A DNA stretch of 38,498 nucleotides, taken from Labilithrix sp. Lineage in GTDB: Bacteria > Myxococcota_A > Polyangia > Polyangiales > Polyangiaceae. The first letter of the stretch is position 1. Each line of letters starts with the position of its first letter. Where the stretch lies: NCBI GenBank assembly GCA_019637105.1, contig JAHBWF010000068.1, positions 1 through 38,498 of the forward strand, written 5' to 3'. Of the stretch, positions 5,090 through 13,861 are shown piece by piece. A model generated the notes under the pieces. The model had not been told where the DNA came from, searched no databases, and saw nothing but the letters and a program-made list of their open reading frames with translations. Both the position numbers and the translations under genes were made by a program.

Positions 5090-6412
5090 CTACTGGTTCT
5101 TGCGCTGGAAGGCGGGGACGTCCCAGTCGGTGTCGAACGCGGGGAAGTTCGAGCCGCGCTCGCGGACCGGGATGCGCCCGCTCGCGGGGGCCACGCGCTG
5201 CTCGAGGCCGGCGTCGCGGCTGACCGGCGCGGCCTGCTGGACGCGGCGGTTCGAGAACGCAGGCGCGTGGACGTCGTGGCGCATCGACGGCTGGCTCGAG
5301 AAGACGGGCTGGACGTGCTGGCGCGAGACGCTCTCCGACGGCGCGCGGAACATCTGCTGCGGGGCCTGCATCGACGGCACCGTCGCCGGGCCGGCCGTCG
5401 GGATCTGGAGGCGCGCCGCCTGATCGAGGCCCGCCATCCGCTCCGCGACGTCGAAGCCGGTCGCGATGACGGTGACCTTCACGTTCTCGCCCAGCTGCTC
5501 GTCGATGCTCGCGCCGAAGATGATGTTCGCGTCCTCGTGCGCCTGCTCCTGGACGAGGCTCGCGGCCTCCTGGATCTCGCGCATCTTGAGGTCGGCGCCG
5601 CCGACGATGTTGATGAGCACGCCGGTCGCCCCGTCCACCGAGATGTCGTCGAGCAGCGGCGACGAGACGGCCATCTCGGCGGCGAGGCGCGCGCGGTTCT
5701 GGCCCTTGGCGATGCCGGTGCCCATGAGCGCGCGGCCCATGCTGTTCATGACCGTCTTCACGTCGGCGAAGTCGACGTTGACGATGCCGTTCTGCGTGAT
5801 GAGGTCGCTGATGCCCTTCACCGCCTGGTAGAGCACCTCGTCCGCCTTGCGGAAGGCGTCGACGAACGACAGGTCGTCCTCGCCGAGCATCAGGAGCTTC
5901 TGGTTCGGGATCGTGATCAGCGTGTCGACCGTCTCGGCGAGCTGCTGGAGGCCGAGCTCCGCGCGGCGCGAGCGCTGGCGGCCCTCGAAGAGGAAGGGCT
6001 TGGTGACCACGCCGACCGTCAGCGCGCCCTCTTCACGCGCGAGCTGCGCGATGACGGGCGCCGCGCCGGTGCCGGTGCCGCCGCCCATGCCGGCGGTGAT
6101 GAAGACCATGTCGGCGCCGCCGATGAGCTCCTTGATGCGCGCGTGGTCCTCCATCGCCGCCTTGCGGCCGCGCTCCGGATCCGCGCCGGCGCCGAGGCCG
6201 CGCGTGACCGCGTTGCCGATGTTCAGGCGCGTGGGGGCGGCGTTGTTGTTCAGCGCCTGCGCGTCGGTGTTCACGACGATGAACTCCACGCCCTCGAGGC
6301 CGAAGTTGATCATCGTGTTGACCGCGTTGCCGCCGGAGCCGCCGCAGCCGATCACCTTGATGCGCGCCTGGTACTCCTGCTGCTCGTCCGCGAACTCGAT
6401 GGAAAACGTCAT
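5090..6412 (-). CDS. ftsZ: Cell division protein FtsZ
   Basis: 440 residues. Tubulin-like GTPase that polymerises into the Z ring at mid-cell. The nucleotide-binding GGGTGTG loop is at 110-116, preceded by GCGGSGGNAV near 22-31. The catalytic T7 loop NVDFAD is at 212-217. The globular part ends near residue 320, followed by a Gln/Pro/Ala/Ser-rich linker. The extreme C-terminus WDVPAFQRKNQ is the conserved tail that binds FtsA and other partners. The ATG at 6412 has GGGAGG 8 nt upstream. Unlike the usual dcw order, it does not follow ftsA directly: two lipoprotein genes and a 623-nt region intervene, so it has its own leader, described separately. Confidence 0.98.
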   Translation of the reverse strand: MTFSIEFADEQQEYQARIKVIGCGGSGGNAVNTMINFGLEGVEFIVVNTDAQALNNNAAPTRLNIGNAVTRGLGAGADPERGRKAAMEDHARIKELIGGADMVFITAGMGGGTGTGAAPVIAQLAREEGALTVGVVTKPFLFEGRQRSRRAELGLQQLAETVDTLITIPNQKLLMLGEDDLSFVDAFRKADEVLYQAVKGISDLITQNGIVNVDFADVKTVMNSMGRALMGTGIAKGQNRARLAAEMAVSSPLLDDISVDGATGVLINIVGGADLKMREIQEAASLVQEQAHEDANIIFGASIDEQLGENVKVTVIATGFDVAERMAGLDQAARLQIPTAGPATVPSMQAPQQMFRAPSESVSRQHVQPVFSSQPSMRHDVHAPAFSNRRVQQAAPVSRDAGLEQRVAPASGRIPVRERGSNFPAFDTDWDVPAFQRKNQ

Positions 6413-6520
6413 GACGCATGCCTCCCGGGCCGGACTCCCCTGTCGTTCGGGGGTTACCGCCTTGGTTTCGTCGAGCGATCCTCCGGGGCCTCTTCCTCGG
6501 GATCGCGCTGAGCACTCGCT

Positions 6521-6574
6521 TCAGCCCCACGCGTACGTGGGGCGCGTGAACCGGGCTTCGGCGACCGAAGCCAT
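6521..6574 (-). CDS. 17-codon leader ORF upstream of ftsZ
   Basis: An ATG at 6574 opens a 17-residue frame, MASVAEARFTRPTYAWG, closed by TGA at 6521. Its start region (Shine-Dalgarno area, ATG and codons 2-3) is identical to that of ftsA, which also begins MAS, so if ftsA is translated from its start this ORF very likely is too. The last codons form one arm of the 6525-6542 stem-loop, so ribosome position could affect folding. It lies 108 nt before ftsZ. It could instead be a decaying copy of the ftsA 5' end with no function. Confidence 0.35.
   Translation of the reverse strand: MASVAEARFTRPTYAWG
6525..6542 (-). promoter_or_regulatory. Stem-loop at the end of the ftsZ leader ORF
   Basis: On the minus strand CCCCACG pairs perfectly with CGTGGGG around a TACG tetraloop. 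It covers the last codons of the leader ORF. No T-tract follows, so it is not a standard intrinsic terminator; it may be a pause or stability element. Confidence 0.4.
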
Positions 6575-6589
6575 CGTGCTCACGCTTCG
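6555..6589 (-). promoter_or_regulatory. Mutually exclusive hairpins around the leader ORF start
   Basis: On the minus strand the order is CGAAGC (6589-6584), 12 nt containing GTGAG and ATG, GCTTCG (6571-6566), 5 nt, CGAAGC (6560-6555). The middle arm can pair with the first arm, placing the start codon in a 12-nt loop, or with the third arm, forming a tighter 5-nt loop just after the start. Only one can form at a time, the geometry of a two-state RNA switch. The ftsA copy has the first pair only. Confidence 0.4.
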
Positions 6590-6630
6590 ACGGTTCGCAT
6601 GCTTCGAGGGCGAGGGCCAAATAAGTGACG
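6566..6630 (-). repeat. 65-nt block shared with the ftsA start region (ftsZ copy)
   Basis: This block aligns without gaps to 11028-11092. The first 31 nt (6566-6596 and 11028-11058) are identical; the remaining 34 nt share 25, giving 56 of 65. It includes the candidate -10 TATTTG, the weak ribosome site, the ATG and codons 2-3 of ftsA. Identity stops abruptly at both ends. Confidence 0.9.
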
Positions 6631-7035
6631 CGCGCGCGAACGAAATTTCTTTCGCCGCGCGCGGGGCCGCGTCGCGAGTCGAGCTGACGAAGGGGTAAGC
6701 GTGAAGAAGCGAAGCCGACTGGACCGTGACGAACGCCCTCGCTCCCGACGCGGGGAGCGCGCCGCCGTCACGGCCCGCCGTAAGGTGTCGCGCTAGATTG
6801 CCAATGTAGGTCAATGTGGCCAACATTTGTGGCCCCGGCGAGGGCGAACGCGCGCGGGCGAGCCCGGGCGAAGCAGAGCGACCGCGCTCACCCCGGACGG
6901 GAGGCGGAGCCGCCCCGGGATGTGTCGAACGGGCCGAGCGTGACGGGATCGCGCTCGGCCGCTCCGAAATGCCCGACACGCGGGACGACGCCCGCGGACG
7001 AGGCGCGGCGGGCTACGCGGCCATGCCTCGGCCGC
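6631..7035. other. Upstream part of the ftsA/lipoprotein-ftsZ intergenic region
   Basis: No credible gene. It holds a long imperfect palindrome at 6632-6662 (GCGCGC arms, inner CGAAA/TTTCG arms, TTTC loop) just upstream of the shared block, and a cluster of short repeats at 6800-6835 listed separately. A 152-codon open frame across part of it on the minus strand is Arg/Pro/Ser-rich without a ribosome site and looks non-coding. Confidence 0.5.
6800..6835. promoter_or_regulatory. Cluster of CAATGT/ACATTG repeats, possible regulator site
   Basis: Two CAATGT units on the plus strand are exactly 10 nt apart, and the second forms an inverted repeat AATGT-GGCCA-ACATT. A further pair GGCCA-N7-TGGCC overlaps it. 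The AT content is higher than in the surroundings. On the minus strand TTGGCC-N17-CAATCT is a weak promoter candidate pointing at ftsZ. The repeats are seen; a bound regulator is inferred. Confidence 0.35.
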
Positions 7036-8508
7036 TCAGAAGTGTCCCGACACGCGGTACGACGGGTTGTCTCGCTGCGCGGCCTTGCAGCCGGCGACGT
7101 CACGCTTCGACACGATGAAGGTGATGGTCGAGTTGTCGCTGTACTTGCTCGAGCCGCTCGGGTTGATCCGGCAGGTCCCGCTCGCGTTCGTATCGCAGTC
7201 GTAGGAGTCCTTGTCCGTCGCGATGTGCAGGTGGTAGCAGCTCGGGTACGCGCTGCCCGTCATCGTCAGCGTGTAGTCGATGTTGTTGACGCAGAGGATG
7301 CTGCCGGTCCCTCGGACCTTGTAGTAGTCGGCGGCCGAGCCGGTCGCGGAGTCGAAGCCGACGATCGAAGGGTTCGCGTGGACCTCGGAGTCGCTCGGCA
7401 GCCGCGCCGGCAGGCTCGCGGTCGACGGCATCGTCAAGATGTCGCTGTCGCTGCAGCCGTGGTCGCCGAGGTTGGTCGCGTTGTTCGTGTCGTGGTTGCC
7501 GACGTAGGGATCGGAGACCTCGCAGCCGTCGCTCTTGTCGTTGTCGACGTTGTACTTCTCGCCCTGACACGAGAAGGTGCACACGGGCTGGTTGCAGCCG
7601 ACGTTGGCGTTCGGCTGCAGGTACCCGGGGCACACCGTCCCGCACGTCCCGCAGTTCGCCGGACCCGCCGTCGCCTCGGCGCAGTACGAGGTGGTGCAGC
7701 CCGCCGGATCGGTCGACGAGCACGTCGCCTTGCAGACCGGCGCCTGCGCCCCGCAGGCGTCGTAGCGCGTCGACGCGGCGAGGCACGTCCGCTGCCCGAC
7801 GCAGCTGCCGGCGGCGTTGGAGCGCGCGCACGCCTGCGGGGTCGCGACGCGATCGCAGAAGCCGCCGAGGGCGTCGAGGCAGCTCAGGCCGCCGGACGGT
7901 CGACAGACCTTCGCGCCGGTGCCGTCGAGCGTGGTGTCCACGCACGCGTAGTCGGGCGGGCACGCGGCCTGACCCGCGATCGTGCAGTCGACGTGGCAGG
8001 CCTTGACGACGTCGCCGTCGGCGACGCCGCAGCGCTCGGAGAGCGAGCCGCACTCGTCGTCGTTGTTGCACGTCTTGCAGTGCGCGGGGCTGCGCGGGAC
8101 GCAGAAGCCCGCGGTCGCGCCGGGCGTGGTCGGATCGCAGAAGAAGTTGTCGGCGCAGTCCGCCTGCGCCGCGCAGGGCGCCACGCAGACGGACGACGTG
8201 CCGCCGGCGAGCACGGGCCGGCACTCGCCCGACATGCAGTCGTCGGCCTTCGCGCAGGGGAACCCGACGGGGTTCCCGCCCGGCGCGACGTCGATCGGCG
8301 CGTCCGTCGACGCGTCGGGCGTCACGCCGGGGTCGCCCCCTGCGCCGCCGTCGTCGGTCGGAGTGTCGGGCCCTCCGCTGCTGCTGCTCGCGCCGGCGCC
8401 TCCGTCGTCGTCGAACTCGGGACGACCGCCGTCTCCCGAGGCCGTCGCGCACGCCGCAAGCACACAGACGCCCGCCATCGCGAGCGCGATGGAGTCTCTC
8501 CGCCTCAT
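7036..8508 (-). CDS. Cys-rich lipoprotein
   Basis: 490 residues. Starts MRRRDS, then a hydrophobic segment ending in a textbook LAAC lipobox with Cys near residue 22. An Asp/Gly/Ser-rich low-complexity linker of about 60 residues follows, then many Cys pairs of the type CxxxxDCxxxxC and CGTCGTVCPG, expected to form disulfides outside the cytoplasm. The C-terminal third is Cys-poorer, with ADYYKVRGTG and alternating beta-like segments. The chosen ATG gives a clean signal; no ribosome site is evident. It begins 14 nt after the end of the upstream lipoprotein gene, so the two form an operon placed between ftsA and ftsZ. Function is unknown. Confidence 0.8.
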   Translation of the reverse strand: MRRRDSIALAMAGVCVLAACATASGDGGRPEFDDDGGAGASSSSGGPDTPTDDGGAGGDPGVTPDASTDAPIDVAPGGNPVGFPCAKADDCMSGECRPVLAGGTSSVCVAPCAAQADCADNFFCDPTTPGATAGFCVPRSPAHCKTCNNDDECGSLSERCGVADGDVVKACHVDCTIAGQAACPPDYACVDTTLDGTGAKVCRPSGGLSCLDALGGFCDRVATPQACARSNAAGSCVGQRTCLAASTRYDACGAQAPVCKATCSSTDPAGCTTSYCAEATAGPANCGTCGTVCPGYLQPNANVGCNQPVCTFSCQGEKYNVDNDKSDGCEVSDPYVGNHDTNNATNLGDHGCSDSDILTMPSTASLPARLPSDSEVHANPSIVGFDSATGSAADYYKVRGTGSILCVNNIDYTLTMTGSAYPSCYHLHIATDKDSYDCDTNASGTCRINPSGSSKYSDNSTITFIVSKRDVAGCKAAQRDNPSYRVSGHF

Positions 8509-8522
8509 GAGCGAAGTGTGCT

Positions 8523-9653
8523 CTATCGGAGGCGCGTCGTCGACGTCTGCGTGTCGTCGGGGAGCCAGACGAAGCGGTCGACGAGGACGGTCGAGTCGAA
8601 CTTGGGATCGCCGGTGTCCCAGATGAGCAGCTCCAAGCTCATCACCTCGCCCGGCGTGACGGCGGCCTGCGTCGTGAGCCACCCCGTCGCGCCGCCGCCG
8701 GTGCTGAGCTGCCCGTTGCAGTAGAGCCCCGGCGCGTAAAACCCCGTCTCTTCGAGCTCGCTCAGGTCCCCGCCGCAGGTCGACGTCTGGAAGATGGGCG
8801 GCTGGCCCTTGCAGCCGGTCTGCGTCCCGACGGTGCAGCGATCGAAGAAGGCGCTGTTCACGCTGAGCGGACGCTGCGCTGCGTCGAACGCGACGTTCTC
8901 CGGGACGCCGCCGTTGAACGCGGACGACGAGAGCCACATCACGAACGCGTCGTTGAACCGGGTGCAGACGTAGTCGGGCCACTCACCCGAGTAAAAGTCG
9001 AAGTCGAGCGAGAAGCCCCTGGCGTTCTTGGGGACCTCGATCGCCAGCTTGACGCTGATCGCGTCGAAGACCTGATCGCTCACCGCGCAGCTCCCGACCG
9101 CCTTCGGGTAGCCGGGGGGCGCCCCGCCCGGCGTCGGCGCGCCGTTCTGCATCTGGACGCCTTGTTTGAAGCAGTGCGTCAGCGTCGCAGGATCGCAGCT
9201 CGTCGCCTGGACGTCGTCGTAGGGGCGCGCCCACCCGGTGCTGAGCACGCCGAGCCTCGCGCCCTCGCGGGGACGGATCACCTTGCCGAACGCCGGCAGG
9301 ATGCCGTGCTGCCCGTCGGCCGGCGGCGTCGTCGCGGCGTGACCGCGCGTGAACGTGGCCGACCGCAGGCCCTTGCAGACGCCGAGCGCCCGCGCGAACC
9401 CGGCGGCGTCCGAGAACACGGGCAGATCGGCGTCGCACGTGGGCGTGTTGTCGACCACGCCGTCGCCGTCGTCGTCGCACCCGTTGCCGGGGACGTCGAA
9501 GTTCGCGGGGTCCGGGACGCACGTGCTCGCGGCGTCGCCGAAGCTCGCCGGGGGAGCGCCCGCCTCCGCCTCGGGATCGAAGCTCGAGCGGGCGCCCTCG
9601 CCGCACGCCGCGGCGAGCACCAGAGCGAGTGCGATGGGTCGAGCGCCGCTCAC
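8523..9653 (-). CDS. Lipoprotein with choice-of-anchor L-like domain
   Basis: 376 residues from a GTG at 9653 with GAGGAT about 8 nt upstream; another GTG at 9698 would add 15 residues before the signal and is less likely. The signal segment ends VLAAAC. Next comes CDDDGDGVVDN, a Ca-binding-like Asp-rich loop often seen in myxobacterial surface proteins. The rest resembles the choice-of-anchor L fold: LDFDFYSGEWPDYV, FNDAFVMWL, and LELLIWDTGDPKFDSTVLVD near the C-terminus. That fold occurs in secreted or surface-anchored adhesin-like proteins. It starts 87 nt after the ftsA stop, on the same strand, and leads the two-gene lipoprotein operon. Specific role unknown. Confidence 0.8.
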   Translation of the reverse strand: MSGARPIALALVLAAACGEGARSSFDPEAEAGAPPASFGDAASTCVPDPANFDVPGNGCDDDGDGVVDNTPTCDADLPVFSDAAGFARALGVCKGLRSATFTRGHAATTPPADGQHGILPAFGKVIRPREGARLGVLSTGWARPYDDVQATSCDPATLTHCFKQGVQMQNGAPTPGGAPPGYPKAVGSCAVSDQVFDAISVKLAIEVPKNARGFSLDFDFYSGEWPDYVCTRFNDAFVMWLSSSAFNGGVPENVAFDAAQRPLSVNSAFFDRCTVGTQTGCKGQPPIFQTSTCGGDLSELEETGFYAPGLYCNGQLSTGGGATGWLTTQAAVTPGEVMSLELLIWDTGDPKFDSTVLVDRFVWLPDDTQTSTTRLR

Positions 9654-9740
9654 GGGACAATCCTCGCACGTCCGCGGCGAAACGCATGCGCCTTCCACGA
9701 AGGGCCGCGGCCGGCGGCCGGCAGCGCGGGTCGCGGCGGA

Positions 9741-11036
9741 TCAGAAGGCGGCCTTGAGCCACTCCCAGAGCTTCGACGACTTCGGCGGCTCGTCGCCCTT
9801 GACCAGCCCGGTCGCGTCCTCGCGCTTGGCGGCCGCGGCGCTCGTGAGGCGCATCATCGACTGCGCCGGCGTGACGGCGCGGGCGTGCGCGTCGGCGATC
9901 GCCTGCGCGCCGTAGCGGACGAGGCCGACGCCGGTGGCGTACTGCGGGCCGTGGACGAGCTGCGTGATCCCGCGGACGCCCGTGGGGAAGCCGATCCGCA
10001 CCGGCATGCCGAGGATCTCCTCCGCGAGCTCGGTCGTCCCCTCGAGCAGGACGGCGCCGCCGGTGAGCACGACGCCCGCCGAGAGCTGCTCGAGCAGGCC
10101 CGTGTCCTCGATGCGCTTGCGGACCACGGCGAAGATCTCCTCGACGCGCGGCTCGATGATGTCGCTGAGCACGCGGCGCGGCGTCCGGCGCGGCTTCTGC
10201 CCGCCGACCCCCGGGACCTCGATCTCCTCGTCGTCCGCGACCATGCGCCCGAGCGAGCAGCCGAAGAGGCGCTTCAAGCGATCCGCCTCGGCCATCGGCG
10301 TGCGCAGGCCCGCGGCGATGTCGTTCGTGATGTTGTTGCCGCCGACGGGCACGACGCTCGCGTGGGCGATGCCGCCGTCGATGTAGAGCAGGATGTCGGT
10401 CGTGCCGCCGCCGATGTCGACGACCGCGGCGCCGATCTCGCGCTCGTCGTCGGAGAGCACGGCCTCGGCGCTCGCGAGCGGCTCGAGGACGACGTCGGCC
10501 ACCACGAGGCCGCAGCGCTCGGCGCAGCGGATGACGTTCTGCACGCAGCTCGTGGCCGCGGTGACGAGGTTCACCTTGGCGCCCAGACGGACGCCGCTCA
10601 TCCCGATCGGATCGCGGATGCCGTCCTGGGTGTCGACGATGTACTCGCGCGGCAAGACGTGGAGGATCTGCCGATCGGCGTCGACGGGGATCGCGCGCGC
10701 GCCCTCGAGGACCCGCTCGACGTCCGCCCGGGCCACCTCGCCCCCGGCGATCGCCGCGACGCCGTCCGACGCCTGCGACCGGATGTGGCTGCCGGCGACG
10801 CCGGCGTACACCGTCCGGATCTCGACGCCGGCCATCGTCTGGGCCGCCTCGATCGCGTCCTTGATCGACCGCACCGTCCAGTCGATGTTGCTGACGATGC
10901 CCTTGCGGAGACCGCGGCAGGGCACGGACCCGACGCCGAGGATCGTGATCCCGTCCTCTGCGATCTCGCCGACGACAGCGCAGACCTTGGTGGTCCCGAT
11001 GTCGAGACCGACGACGATTTCCCCTTGCGAAGCCAT
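9741..11036 (-). CDS. ftsA: Cell division protein FtsA
   Basis: 431 residues. Actin-fold ATPase that anchors the FtsZ ring to the membrane. The phosphate-binding GLDIGTTK is at 10-17, and the second phosphate loop is DIGGGTTD. The C-terminus ends in a basic/aromatic amphipathic helix (KLWEWLKAAF), the membrane anchor, after an Ala/Lys linker. The ATG at 11036 lies in a hairpin loop and is inside the 65-nt block repeated upstream of ftsZ. It is separated from ftsQ by 474 nt holding an opposite-strand zinc-finger gene, so it has its own promoter. The next gene downstream is a lipoprotein, not ftsZ, which is a departure from standard dcw order. Confidence 0.97.
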   Translation of the reverse strand: MASQGEIVVGLDIGTTKVCAVVGEIAEDGITILGVGSVPCRGLRKGIVSNIDWTVRSIKDAIEAAQTMAGVEIRTVYAGVAGSHIRSQASDGVAAIAGGEVARADVERVLEGARAIPVDADRQILHVLPREYIVDTQDGIRDPIGMSGVRLGAKVNLVTAATSCVQNVIRCAERCGLVVADVVLEPLASAEAVLSDDEREIGAAVVDIGGGTTDILLYIDGGIAHASVVPVGGNNITNDIAAGLRTPMAEADRLKRLFGCSLGRMVADDEEIEVPGVGGQKPRRTPRRVLSDIIEPRVEEIFAVVRKRIEDTGLLEQLSAGVVLTGGAVLLEGTTELAEEILGMPVRIGFPTGVRGITQLVHGPQYATGVGLVRYGAQAIADAHARAVTPAQSMMRLTSAAAAKREDATGLVKGDEPPKSSKLWEWLKAAF

Positions 11037-11092
11037 CGTGCTCACGCTTCGACGGTTCTCATGGTTCCGCGGGCTGGGCCAAATATGTGACG
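11028..11092 (-). repeat. 65-nt block shared with the ftsZ leader (ftsA copy)
   Basis: Partner of 6566-6630. It contains the first three codons of ftsA, its weak GTGAG ribosome site in a 12-nt loop between CGAAGC (11051-11046) and GCTTCG (11033-11028), and TATTTG at 11080-11085 as a candidate -10, about 45 nt before the ATG. Unlike the ftsZ copy, no third arm follows. Confidence 0.9.
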
Positions 11093-11189: not shown

Positions 11190-11489
11190 ATGAGCGCGGC
11201 GGGGAGCACGGGGTCGGGGGAGCGCTGCTCCGCGTGCGGGCGCGCGGCCGCGCAGGTGACGCGGCTGCTCGCCGGCCGCGCGCCCGACGCCGCGCCGATC
11301 CGCATCTGCGACCGGTGCGTCCGCGAGTGCGAGCAGGCGATCGCCGACGCGCCGACGCGCATCCCGGGCGGCGCGCACTCGTGCGCCTTCTGCGCGAAGC
11401 TGGAGGACCAGGTCGCGGTCATCGTCGGCGTCGGGGCGAAGAAGATCTGCGACGAGTGCGTCGACGCGTACCGCGCCGTGCTCGACTGA
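11190..11489 (+). CDS. Tandem ClpX-type zinc-finger protein
   Basis: 99 residues, only two zinc fingers of the ClpX N-terminal C4 type. Finger 1 uses C13, C16, C40, C43; finger 2 uses C65, C68, C87, C90, with the typical ICDRCV and ICDECV endings. There is no AAA+ part. In ClpX this domain dimerises and binds substrates and adaptors such as SspB. A free-standing double copy could bind ClpX, partners or another protein; this is inference. It is divergent from ftsA (153-nt shared upstream region) and convergent with ftsQ (21-nt gap). The ribosome site is weak. Family membership is well supported by the eight cysteines and spacing. Confidence 0.85.
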   Translation: MSAAGSTGSGERCSACGRAAAQVTRLLAGRAPDAAPIRICDRCVRECEQAIADAPTRIPGGAHSCAFCAKLEDQVAVIVGVGAKKICDECVDAYRAVLD

Positions 11490-11510: not shown

Positions 11511-12449
11511 TCAGCGCATCCGGACGACGACGCGATCCGGGCGCGCCTCGTCGTCGAGCATGATCACCTCCGGCTTCGCGCCGCGGCGATCCAGCTCGCC
11601 GACGATCCGCGCCGCCTGGTCGAGCTTGCGGCGGTACGGCCCCGCGCCCATCCGGAGGACGACGCCGCTCTTGCCGACGACGAGCGTGAGATCGCCGTTC
11701 GGCTCGACGTGCACCTCCTGGATCGGAGAGCGCTGCGCGAGCGGGGAGCGATCGTAGTCGTAGGCGAGATCGAGGGCCTGCCGGATCGTGCGCGTCGCGC
11801 CCTCGCGATCCTCCACCAGCGTCTTCAGGACGAGGCCGGTGACGACGTGGAAGTCCAGCGGATCTCCGGCCTCGACGCGCTTGATGATCACGCCGTCGCG
11901 CGTGACGAGGTAGGTGCCCGCGGGCGTGGCCGGCGCCGACTCGGTCGCGGTCCCCTCCGCGACGGCGACGACGCCCGCCGCCTCGCGCTCGGTGACGCGG
12001 ATCGAGATGGTGCCCGGCAGCTGGCGACCGACCTCGGCGCTCTCGATCCACGGATCGGACGCGAGGCGCGCGCGCGCGCGATCGAGGTCGAGGGCGAAGA
12101 CGTTCTGCCCCTTGGCGATCCCGGCGATGCCCGCGAGGTCCTCGGGCCCGCGGAGCTTGCCGCCCGACGTGACGATCTCGCTCACGGCGAAGCGCGGGCT
12201 CGTCCGCACGTAGCGCCGCGCGCCCCAGACGACGCCCGAGCCGATGCCGACGACCATCGCGAGCCCGACGATCGCCCTGAGCGCGCGGAGGACGCGCGAG
12301 TCGCCGGCGGGCTTCGGACGCGACGCCGGACGCGGCGCGACGTCCCCCGAGACCGGCGGCGGGAGGCTGCCCGAGCTCCGATCACGGCGCCGGACGTTCT
12401 TCGCCGGCTCGAGGCCGTTCGAGCGCGGGGAGGCCGACGGCGGGCTCAC
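11511..12449 (-). CDS. ftsQ: Cell division protein FtsQ
   Basis: 312 residues from a GTG at 12449 that overlaps the murC stop as GTGA. The cytoplasmic N-terminus (about 1-65) is long, Pro/Arg-rich; one membrane segment follows (LRAIVGLAMVVGIGSGVVWG). The periplasmic part starts with a POTRA-like region (FAVSEIVTSGGKLRGPEDL, then VFALDLDRARARLASDPWI and LPGTISIRVTEREA), the usual FtsQ/DivIB order. It links FtsA/FtsK side proteins to the FtsBL and FtsWI complexes. It is the last gene of the mraY-ftsQ block. Neither murB nor ddl lies between it and murC. Confidence 0.93.
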   Translation of the reverse strand: MSPPSASPRSNGLEPAKNVRRRDRSSGSLPPPVSGDVAPRPASRPKPAGDSRVLRALRAIVGLAMVVGIGSGVVWGARRYVRTSPRFAVSEIVTSGGKLRGPEDLAGIAGIAKGQNVFALDLDRARARLASDPWIESAEVGRQLPGTISIRVTEREAAGVVAVAEGTATESAPATPAGTYLVTRDGVIIKRVEAGDPLDFHVVTGLVLKTLVEDREGATRTIRQALDLAYDYDRSPLAQRSPIQEVHVEPNGDLTLVVGKSGVVLRMGAGPYRRKLDQAARIVGELDRRGAKPEVIMLDDEARPDRVVVRMR

Positions 12450-13861
12450 GCTCGTCCTCCCCTCGCGGCGTCGAGCCGGACCGCGAGCTTCTTGGCGCTC
12501 GCGTTGATGTCGCCGGCGCCGAGCGCGATCACGAGATCGCCGGGCAGCACCTCCTCGAGGAGCGCGGCCTCGACGTCGTTCTTGTCGGGGACGTAGCGCA
12601 CGGCGTGGTGGCCGTGCGCGCGGATCGCCTCGGCGAGCTCCTTGCCGGTGGCGCCCTCGATCGGCTTCTCGCCCGCCGGGTAGACCTCGGTCACGATGAC
12701 GAGATCGGCCTTGTTGAACGAGCGCGTGAACTCGTCGAAGAGGTCCCGCGTCCGCGTGTAGCGGTGCGGCTGGAACGCGACGACGACGCGCCGGTCGAAG
12801 CCCGCCTGGGCGGCGTCGAGCGTGGCCTCGATCTCGGCCGGGTGGTGGCCGTAGTCGTCGACGATCATCACGTCGCCCTCCTTGCCGTCCTTCGCGAGCG
12901 CCGGCTGTCCGACGACCGTGAAGCGGCGCTGCACGCCGTGGAAGCCCGCGATCGCCTCGCGGACGACGTCGAGCGGGACCTCGAGCTCGTCGGCGACCGC
13001 GATCACCGAGAGCGCGTTGAGGACGTTGTGCGCGCCGGGCATGCGCACCGTGAACGCGCCGAGCGACTCGCCGCGCCGGTGGACCTCGAAATGCGTCTCG
13101 AGGCCGGCGAACGTCGGGTTCTTCGCGCGGTAGTCCGCCTGCCGCGAGACGCCGTAGGTGACGTGCCGGCGGCCGATCTTCGGGAGGATCGCCTGGACGT
13201 GCGGGTGGTCGATGCACAGCACCGCCAGCCCGTAGAACGGGATCTTGTTGGCGAACGCGACGAAGGCGTCCTTGACGTTCTCGTGGCTGCCGTAGTGGTC
13301 GAGGTGCTCGGCGTCGATGTTCGTGATCACGCCGATGGTGGGCGTGAGCTTGAGGAACGAGCCGTCGCTCTCGTCGGCCTCCGCCACGAAGAGGTCCCCC
13401 TCCCCGAGGCGGGCGTTCGAGCCGAGCGCGTTGACCTTGCCCCCGACGACCACGGTGGGGTCGAGGCCGGCGTGGCGGAGGACGGTCGCGACGAGCGACG
13501 TCGTCGTCGTCTTGCCGTGAGAGCCCGCGATGAGGACGCAGTACTTCACGCGCATCAGCTCGGCGAGCATCTCGGCGCGCGGGATGATCGGGATCTCGAG
13601 CTCCCTCGCGCGGACGATCTCCGGGTTGTCGGGCCTGATCGCGCTCGAGAAGACGACGACGTCGGCCCCCTCGACGTTCTCGGCCCGGTGCCCGACGTCG
13701 ACGCGGACGCCCATCGACTCGAGGCGGCGCGTGATGTCGTTCGGCTTCATGTCGGAGCCGGAGACGTCGAACTCCATCGTGCGCAGGATCTCGGCGAGGC
13801 CGCTCATCCCGATCCCGCCGACGCCGACGAAATGAGCGTGGCGCATCCGTCCGCGGAACAT
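12446..13861 (-). CDS. murC: UDP-N-acetylmuramate--L-alanine ligase MurC
   Basis: 471 residues. Adds L-Ala to UDP-MurNAc using ATP in the cytoplasm, the first amino acid of the stem peptide. The N-terminal UDP-binding motif GVGGIGMSG is at 13-21, the ATP loop GSHGKTTT at 113-120, with EADESDGSF, NIDAEHLDHYG and DDYGHHPAEI as further Mur ligase signatures; the last is typical of MurC. The ATG at 13861 overlaps the murG stop by one base (TGATG), so coupled translation is likely. Confidence 0.97.
   Translation of the reverse strand: MFRGRMRHAHFVGVGGIGMSGLAEILRTMEFDVSGSDMKPNDITRRLESMGVRVDVGHRAENVEGADVVVFSSAIRPDNPEIVRARELEIPIIPRAEMLAELMRVKYCVLIAGSHGKTTTTSLVATVLRHAGLDPTVVVGGKVNALGSNARLGEGDLFVAEADESDGSFLKLTPTIGVITNIDAEHLDHYGSHENVKDAFVAFANKIPFYGLAVLCIDHPHVQAILPKIGRRHVTYGVSRQADYRAKNPTFAGLETHFEVHRRGESLGAFTVRMPGAHNVLNALSVIAVADELEVPLDVVREAIAGFHGVQRRFTVVGQPALAKDGKEGDVMIVDDYGHHPAEIEATLDAAQAGFDRRVVVAFQPHRYTRTRDLFDEFTRSFNKADLVIVTEVYPAGEKPIEGATGKELAEAIRAHGHHAVRYVPDKNDVEAALLEEVLPGDLVIALGAGDINASAKKLAVRLDAARGGRA

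Follow-up and report, generated by a model that had tools for sequence, protein, structure and literature searches.

A 65-bp block carrying the ftsA start codon and the sequence immediately upstream of it is present a second time before ftsZ in a 38,498-nt stretch of Labilithrix sp. DNA, hereafter called the window. Judging from sequence comparison, we consider it likely that this second block is a duplicated promoter, which would have kept ftsZ in a small division and segregation regulon after the ftsA-ftsZ operon opened. The relatives of this organism offer a natural experiment: in six genomes the linkage between ftsA and ftsZ has been opened, the putative promoter has been copied, and its core is unchanged at the ftsZ copy. 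The comparison also supplies a concrete sequence element and a short list of its targets.

The ftsA start region is duplicated upstream of ftsZ

Both copies of the block lie on the minus strand, as do ftsA (9741..11036) and ftsZ (5090..6412), the latter preceded in the sequence by a Shine-Dalgarno-like GGGAGG at 6421..6426 (minus strand). Copy 1 (11028..11092) spans the putative promoter and the start region of ftsA, with the ftsA ATG at 11036-11034. Copy 2 (6566..6630) sits 153 nt upstream of ftsZ. An ungapped alignment of the two copies gives 56 identities over 65 positions; the longest identical run is 31 bases, and the edges of the match are sharp, the adjoining 5-35 bases being 13-40% identical. 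On recomputation, we obtained exactly the block coordinates, the identity, the 31-base run, and the sharp edges described in a first-pass annotation of the window. The same annotation had listed the block, with the ftsA start codon, under 6566-6630. The block pair is real, but 6566-6630 is the ftsZ-side copy, so the true ftsA start lies in 11028-11092; the corresponding ATG of copy 2 is at 6574-6572.

For comparison, the best 65-bp match found among 40 shuffled windows reached 36/65, and the second-best place for the block within the same strand of the unshuffled window reached 32/65. A 201-base query against the 8.45 Mb draft genome returned the two copies and one 23-base match beyond the block; with this query, a third copy of the block was not found in the rest of the draft. 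The 31-base identical run includes codons 1-3 of ftsA, so the homology of copy 2 extends past the regulatory motif described below. A convergent origin of copy 2 was ruled out because ftsA codons were duplicated along with that motif. As a separate observation, a palindrome-like sequence, GCGAAAGAAATTTCGT, lies immediately upstream of copy 2 (6640-6655, minus strand), with looser forms in G003 and G010.

The second copy accompanies the separation of ftsA and ftsZ

We compared 13 genomes of the genus, among them that of the window (G000); most genomes in the analysis are draft assemblies. The distance between ftsA and ftsZ is 68-178 nt in seven members (G001, G002, G005, G008, G009, G011, and G012) and 0.95-3.3 kb in six (G000, G003, G004, G006, G007, and contig C124 of G010). 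A second copy precedes ftsZ in 6/6 split and 0/7 unsplit genomes, and it occupies the same place in the five other split genomes as in the window. Scored with a motif matrix, which included a wrong, later TTGGCC site for G009, the second site reaches 27.2-31.7 bits in the split members and -6.7 bits or less in the unsplit ones, against a shuffled maximum of at most 4.7. The first-pass proposal that ftsZ kept a duplicate of the ftsA promoter and start, for which close relatives had been suggested as a check, is thus borne out by all six split members of the genus.

In the ftsA tree, the split label is explained by a single change in 84% of bootstrap trees; support for the split clade is 79/94, and the placement of G006 is weak. 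G010 contains both a split and an unsplit contig and has a contamination of 7%, so its split contig could come from another organism. Outside the genus, we found separate splits in G059 (L161, 8.3 kb gap) and G040 (L162, 2.1 kb gap). A full second site was not found in the last 600 nt before ftsZ in either; G059 has a half site of 5.3 bits (shuffled maximum, 5.9) and G040 has none. Over the 61 gaps of at least 60 nt that were scanned (last 600 nt, one strand), G023 is the one unsplit operon with a full second site, at 19.4 bits, so a second site does not require a split. G020 has a half site before ftsZ (CACTTATTTGGCC with the wrong spacing, 1.2 bits). Presence in split genomes and absence from unsplit relatives therefore hold within the genus, while G059, G040, and G023 run contrary to this association.

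The DNA that separates the two genes differs among the split genomes. In the window it contains two lipoprotein-like ORFs without a Pfam match, one of 490 aa (7036..8508, minus strand; 88% identical in G004) and one of 391 aa with a GTG start (8523..9698, minus strand). These long ORFs are common only to G000 and G004. G006 and G010 carry shorter lipoprotein-like ORFs with no detectable similarity to those of G000 and G004 or to each other, the insert of G007 is an opposite-strand ORF, and that of G003 consists of small ORFs and repeats only. The copy therefore goes with the split and not with one inserted gene set, and the earlier suggestion that a lipoprotein operon had split the genes was rejected.

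We note two further features of this region. A CCTACAT/ATGTAGG element (6804-6810 in the window, minus strand) occurs in the ftsA-ftsZ gap of 10/61 genomes, where 1.03 are expected; five of the six split genomes have it upstream of copy 2, near a TTGGCCACAT stretch. On the other side of ftsA, a 99-aa ORF with CxxC pairs (11190-11489, plus strand) separates ftsA from the next ORF on its strand (11511-13217, putative ftsQ); as the 99-aa ORF has the opposite orientation, ftsA may also be disconnected from the cluster upstream.

The conserved part of the block is a two-box element

The conserved part of the ftsA upstream region reads TTGGCC-N14-[ACG]TG, with an A/T-rich left flank and a downstream box that is often RTGCGA. 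TTGGCC followed by [ACG]TG exactly 14 nt on (the spaced pair) is present in 57 of 63 ftsA upstream regions from two families, Polyangiaceae and a sister family, and is absent from six (G041, G043, G044, G049, G055, and G058). The downstream box of these 57 pairs extends to [ACG]TGNNA in 54 and to RTGSSA in 38; it is mostly RTGCGA in and near the genus and often ATGGCAGCGTC elsewhere. Our alignment of the sites (A2) comprises 56 of the 57, as G009 was omitted after a later TTGGCC had been picked there, though its true site fits. Elsewhere in the order, outside these two families, the best match to the element model among those listed had an E value of 0.12.

In copy 2 of the window, the upstream box TTGGCC (6615..6620, minus strand) lies inside the core CACTTATTTGGCC (6627-6615), and the downstream box ATGCGA follows 14 nt past TTGGCC (6595..6600, minus strand). 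The corresponding boxes of copy 1 are TTGGCC at 11077..11082 and ATGAGA at 11057..11062 (both minus strand). The core of copy 2 is unchanged in 6/6 split genomes. The copy-1 core is intact in two of these six (G007 and G010), with one change each in G000, G003, and G004 and five in G006; in the seven unsplit genomes it has no change in five, one change in one, and five in one.

This pattern bears on whether copy 2 might be a neutral leftover, still undecayed, from a tandem duplication or a template switch. Such an origin would suit a copy that has sharp edges, ends within ftsA coding codons, and is followed by the inverted complement of its own end. A decaying remnant is hard to reconcile with a core that stays constant while its flanks diverge, with a start region that has decayed in G006 where the core has not, and with the absence of the second site from the seven unsplit relatives. 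We regard it as very improbable.

We infer that the two-box element is a promoter, with the downstream box of copy 2 as the probable -10 and a transcription start that would lie near 6588. The first-pass annotation had named TATTTG as a candidate -10 kept in both copies. TATTTG is indeed conserved in both, but it falls within CACTTATTTGGCC, where it overlaps the upstream box of the fixed-spacing element, and is probably not the -10. Given this overlap, starts near 6588 and 11050 appear likelier than starts near 6611 and 11073. The end of the downstream box is 12-22 nt from the ftsA start codon in 12 of the 13 genus members and in G023 (50 nt in G001), so that hardly any space is left for another -10, and a nearby promoter must then start transcription directly after the box. 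In other genera this distance is mostly 50-100 nt, so the argument from lack of room is a local one.

Sigma-70 promoters have TTGACA- and TATAAT-like hexamers 16-18 bp apart, a spacing that the two conserved boxes do not share, being 14 nt apart in 57 of 63 ftsA upstream regions; a less conserved hexamer could still lie elsewhere. Sigma-54 promoters have the form GG-N10-GC; by eye, the window copies have GG followed 10 nt later by CG (copy 2) or GG (copy 1). The misfit of the 14-nt spacing to sigma-70 makes a special sigma factor or an activator likely.

The same misfit is compatible with the main rival to a promoter, namely that the element is purely an operator for a repressor or activator, that other promoters serve ftsA and ftsZ, and that the copy brings regulation only. 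In the consensus, each box can be taken as one unit of a TGGC direct repeat spaced by 20 bp, or two helical turns. In most other genera, the distance of 50-100 nt before the ftsA start would accommodate a separate promoter, and in unsplit genomes transcription could enter from upstream. The short distance to the ftsA start codon within the genus and in G023 argues against an operator, as do the opposite-strand ORF upstream of copy 2 in G007 and the finding that, in G006, the element is the best-conserved stretch upstream of ftsZ. On balance we think an operator unlikely, and we keep the promoter as the preferred reading.

The ATG within the downstream box raises another alternative, in which the conserved part would be a leader peptide, MRTVEA, that exerts translational control. 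Each copy in the window encodes MRTVEA and then TGA; the AGA/CGA difference between them is synonymous. By eye, the frame or length is lost in copy 1 of G004, G008, G002, and G010 and in copy 2 of G006, and many genera have GTGCGA or GTGGCA at this position. We rejected the peptide, which is not conserved among relatives and which we consider even less credible than the neutral remnant.

The copied ftsA start codon lies within a hairpin

The copied ftsA start codon (6572..6574, minus strand) is probably unused as a start. It is ACG in G003 and lost in G006, and is thus not kept in two of the six split genomes. In the window a hairpin at 6544..6585 (minus strand), a fold common to five of the six split genomes, holds it in a small internal loop. 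This loop contains the start codon in four of the five and the ACG at the same place in G003. The hairpin is made up of the end of the block and its inverted complement directly after it; copy 1 does not form it. The 62-nt segments from the five genomes fold at -32.2 to -34.6 kcal/mol, and the 197-nt leader has a z score of -2.85. The ribosome-binding region and ATG, which had been emphasized in the first-pass annotation, are therefore poor candidates for the working part of the copy, being lost in G003 and G006 and enclosed by the hairpin in five of six genomes. In G006, the start region has decayed and the core is intact. A 17-codon ORF that begins at the copied ATG was also considered and set aside, as it is not conserved.

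The element recurs upstream of ParA-like and Clp-like genes

A genome-wide promoter in the exact form seen in the genus was rejected: with two mismatches allowed, this pattern gave 40 matches against 44 for the control, which is no excess, and with none allowed it matched the two copies only. A broader model (R1), unlike the exact pattern, revealed recurring genes. R1 was trained on a set that contained the ftsA site and not the ftsZ copy. In the genome of the window it found seven places at E ≤ 2, of which the top two, at E 0.003, are the ftsA and ftsZ copies. Four of the remaining five lie upstream of a small Cys-containing ORF (C329, E 0.022), of a ParA-like gene (C279, E 0.044), of a lipoprotein-like gene (C134, E 0.39), and of a Clp-like AAA+ gene (C112, E 0.64); the fifth is on C324 (E 1.29). 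With three of the seven at E 0.39-1.29, these values alone prove little, and the claim rests on recurrence across genera. Pfam and NCBIfam named nothing for several of the motif-linked ORFs.

Upstream of the ParA-like gene, the spaced pair is present at 22 of 28 loci fetched by protein (background, ~0.002 per region), with the full RTGSSA box in only 10 of the 22. It is absent in G015, G023, G030, and G031, and in G073 and G079 of the sister family (both loci there). Thirty loci had been fetched, and L331 (no N-terminus) and L329 (upstream region beyond the contig) were left out; an alternative tally of 25/32 takes in three motif-found loci and L329. Upstream of the Clp-like gene, the spaced pair is present at 14 of 20 loci within the family (background, ~0.007), with RTGSSA in 11 of the 14, and at 0 of 4 loci outside it; six of 30 Clp-like loci had no N-terminal match. 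Removing the loci at which the motif had first pointed to the gene (5 of the 28 ParA-like and 2 of the 20 Clp-like) leaves 17/23 and 12/18, respectively. The same site therefore stands before orthologous genes across genera, with orthology defined as the best protein match.

The ParA-like gene (L316:229-1461, minus strand; also at L254, L307, L312, and L319 and on contigs C279 and C214 of G000) encodes a ParA/MipZ-like ATPase whose N-terminus is, from the sequence, Cys-rich. Its ATPase domain matches Pfam AAA_31, CbiA, and MipZ, and its closest solved relative by sequence is the segregation protein 1wcv (E 2e-46). A ParA-type match was found in 59/59 genomes searched, among the matches listed. 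The Clp-like gene (loci L351-L369) encodes a protein with Clp_N and AAA+ domains.

The ftsZ leader contains a covarying hairpin

A second hairpin is found in many ftsZ leaders of the two families (L144-L210), with a loop that reads AAGAGGCG, AGAGGCA, AAGGCAGA, or similar. In the clade of the window it is located between copy 2 and the Shine-Dalgarno sequence, whereas unsplit genomes have it in the short spacer from ftsA to ftsZ. In the window it spans 6471..6510 (minus strand), with the loop AAGAGGCC at 6494-6487, and only the inner two pairs and an outer GATCC/GGATC stem are formed. The strict form is present in 31 of 64 ftsZ leaders; the alignment is limited to these 31, for which the two inner pairs were required, and its rows align without gaps. 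Double changes occur in all six stem pairs, in 36 cells compared with 15.4 after shuffling, a value reached in 0 of 500 shuffles, and 31 of the 36 cells belong to the four outer pairs, which are free of the selection rule.

Rfam gave no family at the gathering score over the whole window; the one match in the leader region, to a miRNA family at E 0.24, fell far short of its threshold and covered a different stretch. With a model built on the hairpin (R2), the ftsZ leader is the best place in the genome of the window among the matches listed, with at least 10 places at E ≤ 1; among those listed for G010 and G004, other genomic places score near the ftsZ leader, so the hairpin may not be special to ftsZ. 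We can only guess at its role, as a protein-binding or mRNA-stability element.

Discussion

We propose that the two-box element, (A/T-rich)TTGGCC-N14-[ACG]TGNNA, starts transcription before ftsA in Polyangiaceae and the sister family, with TTGGCC as its upstream side and RTGCGA as a -10-like box. In the ancestor of a sub-group of the genus, the element would have been copied upstream of ftsZ together with the first ftsA codons. ftsZ would then have become independent of read-through from ftsA, so that unrelated DNA could build up in the space separating the two genes. Despite this intervening DNA, the copied promoter would give ftsZ the same control as ftsA, and because the same element precedes the ParA-like and Clp-like genes, the copy may keep ftsZ in a small division and segregation regulon. 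The copied ftsA start would be a by-product, neutralized by mutation or by the hairpin.

A bolder form of this proposal would make the element, as (A/T)TTGGCC-N14-[ACG]TGNNA, a dedicated Polyangiaceae promoter class for division and segregation, read by a sigma factor or master regulator and controlling ftsA, the ParA-like gene, and the Clp-like gene, with ftsZ kept in the set by duplication and the copied start silenced by the new hairpin. We take this fuller version seriously and stop just short of favoring it. In the portions available to us of the literature on Myxococcus ftsA and ftsZ promoters, on the splitting of operons, and on PomZ, Sorangium, and the dcw cluster, we found no mention of the element, nor of what governs ftsZ transcription in these bacteria or links it to segregation genes. 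The control element may be undescribed so far.

Three known systems resemble parts of what we observe. Like the structured 5' leaders collected as Rfam families, the ftsZ leader has a covarying hairpin upstream of a Shine-Dalgarno sequence, but here it corresponds to no Rfam family at the gathering score. Other bacteria have promoters inside the dcw cluster before ftsA or ftsZ, and the putative promoters described here are likewise local to these genes. We know of no dcw-cluster promoter with this sequence and spacing, and the present element, in contrast to such promoters, recurs at ParA-like and Clp-like genes. Finally, operons are known to break up when a gene leaves and acquires its own promoter. 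ftsZ has likewise left its operon and appears to have its own promoter, but here the new promoter would be a traceable copy of the promoter of its neighbor, together with part of that neighbor's coding sequence.
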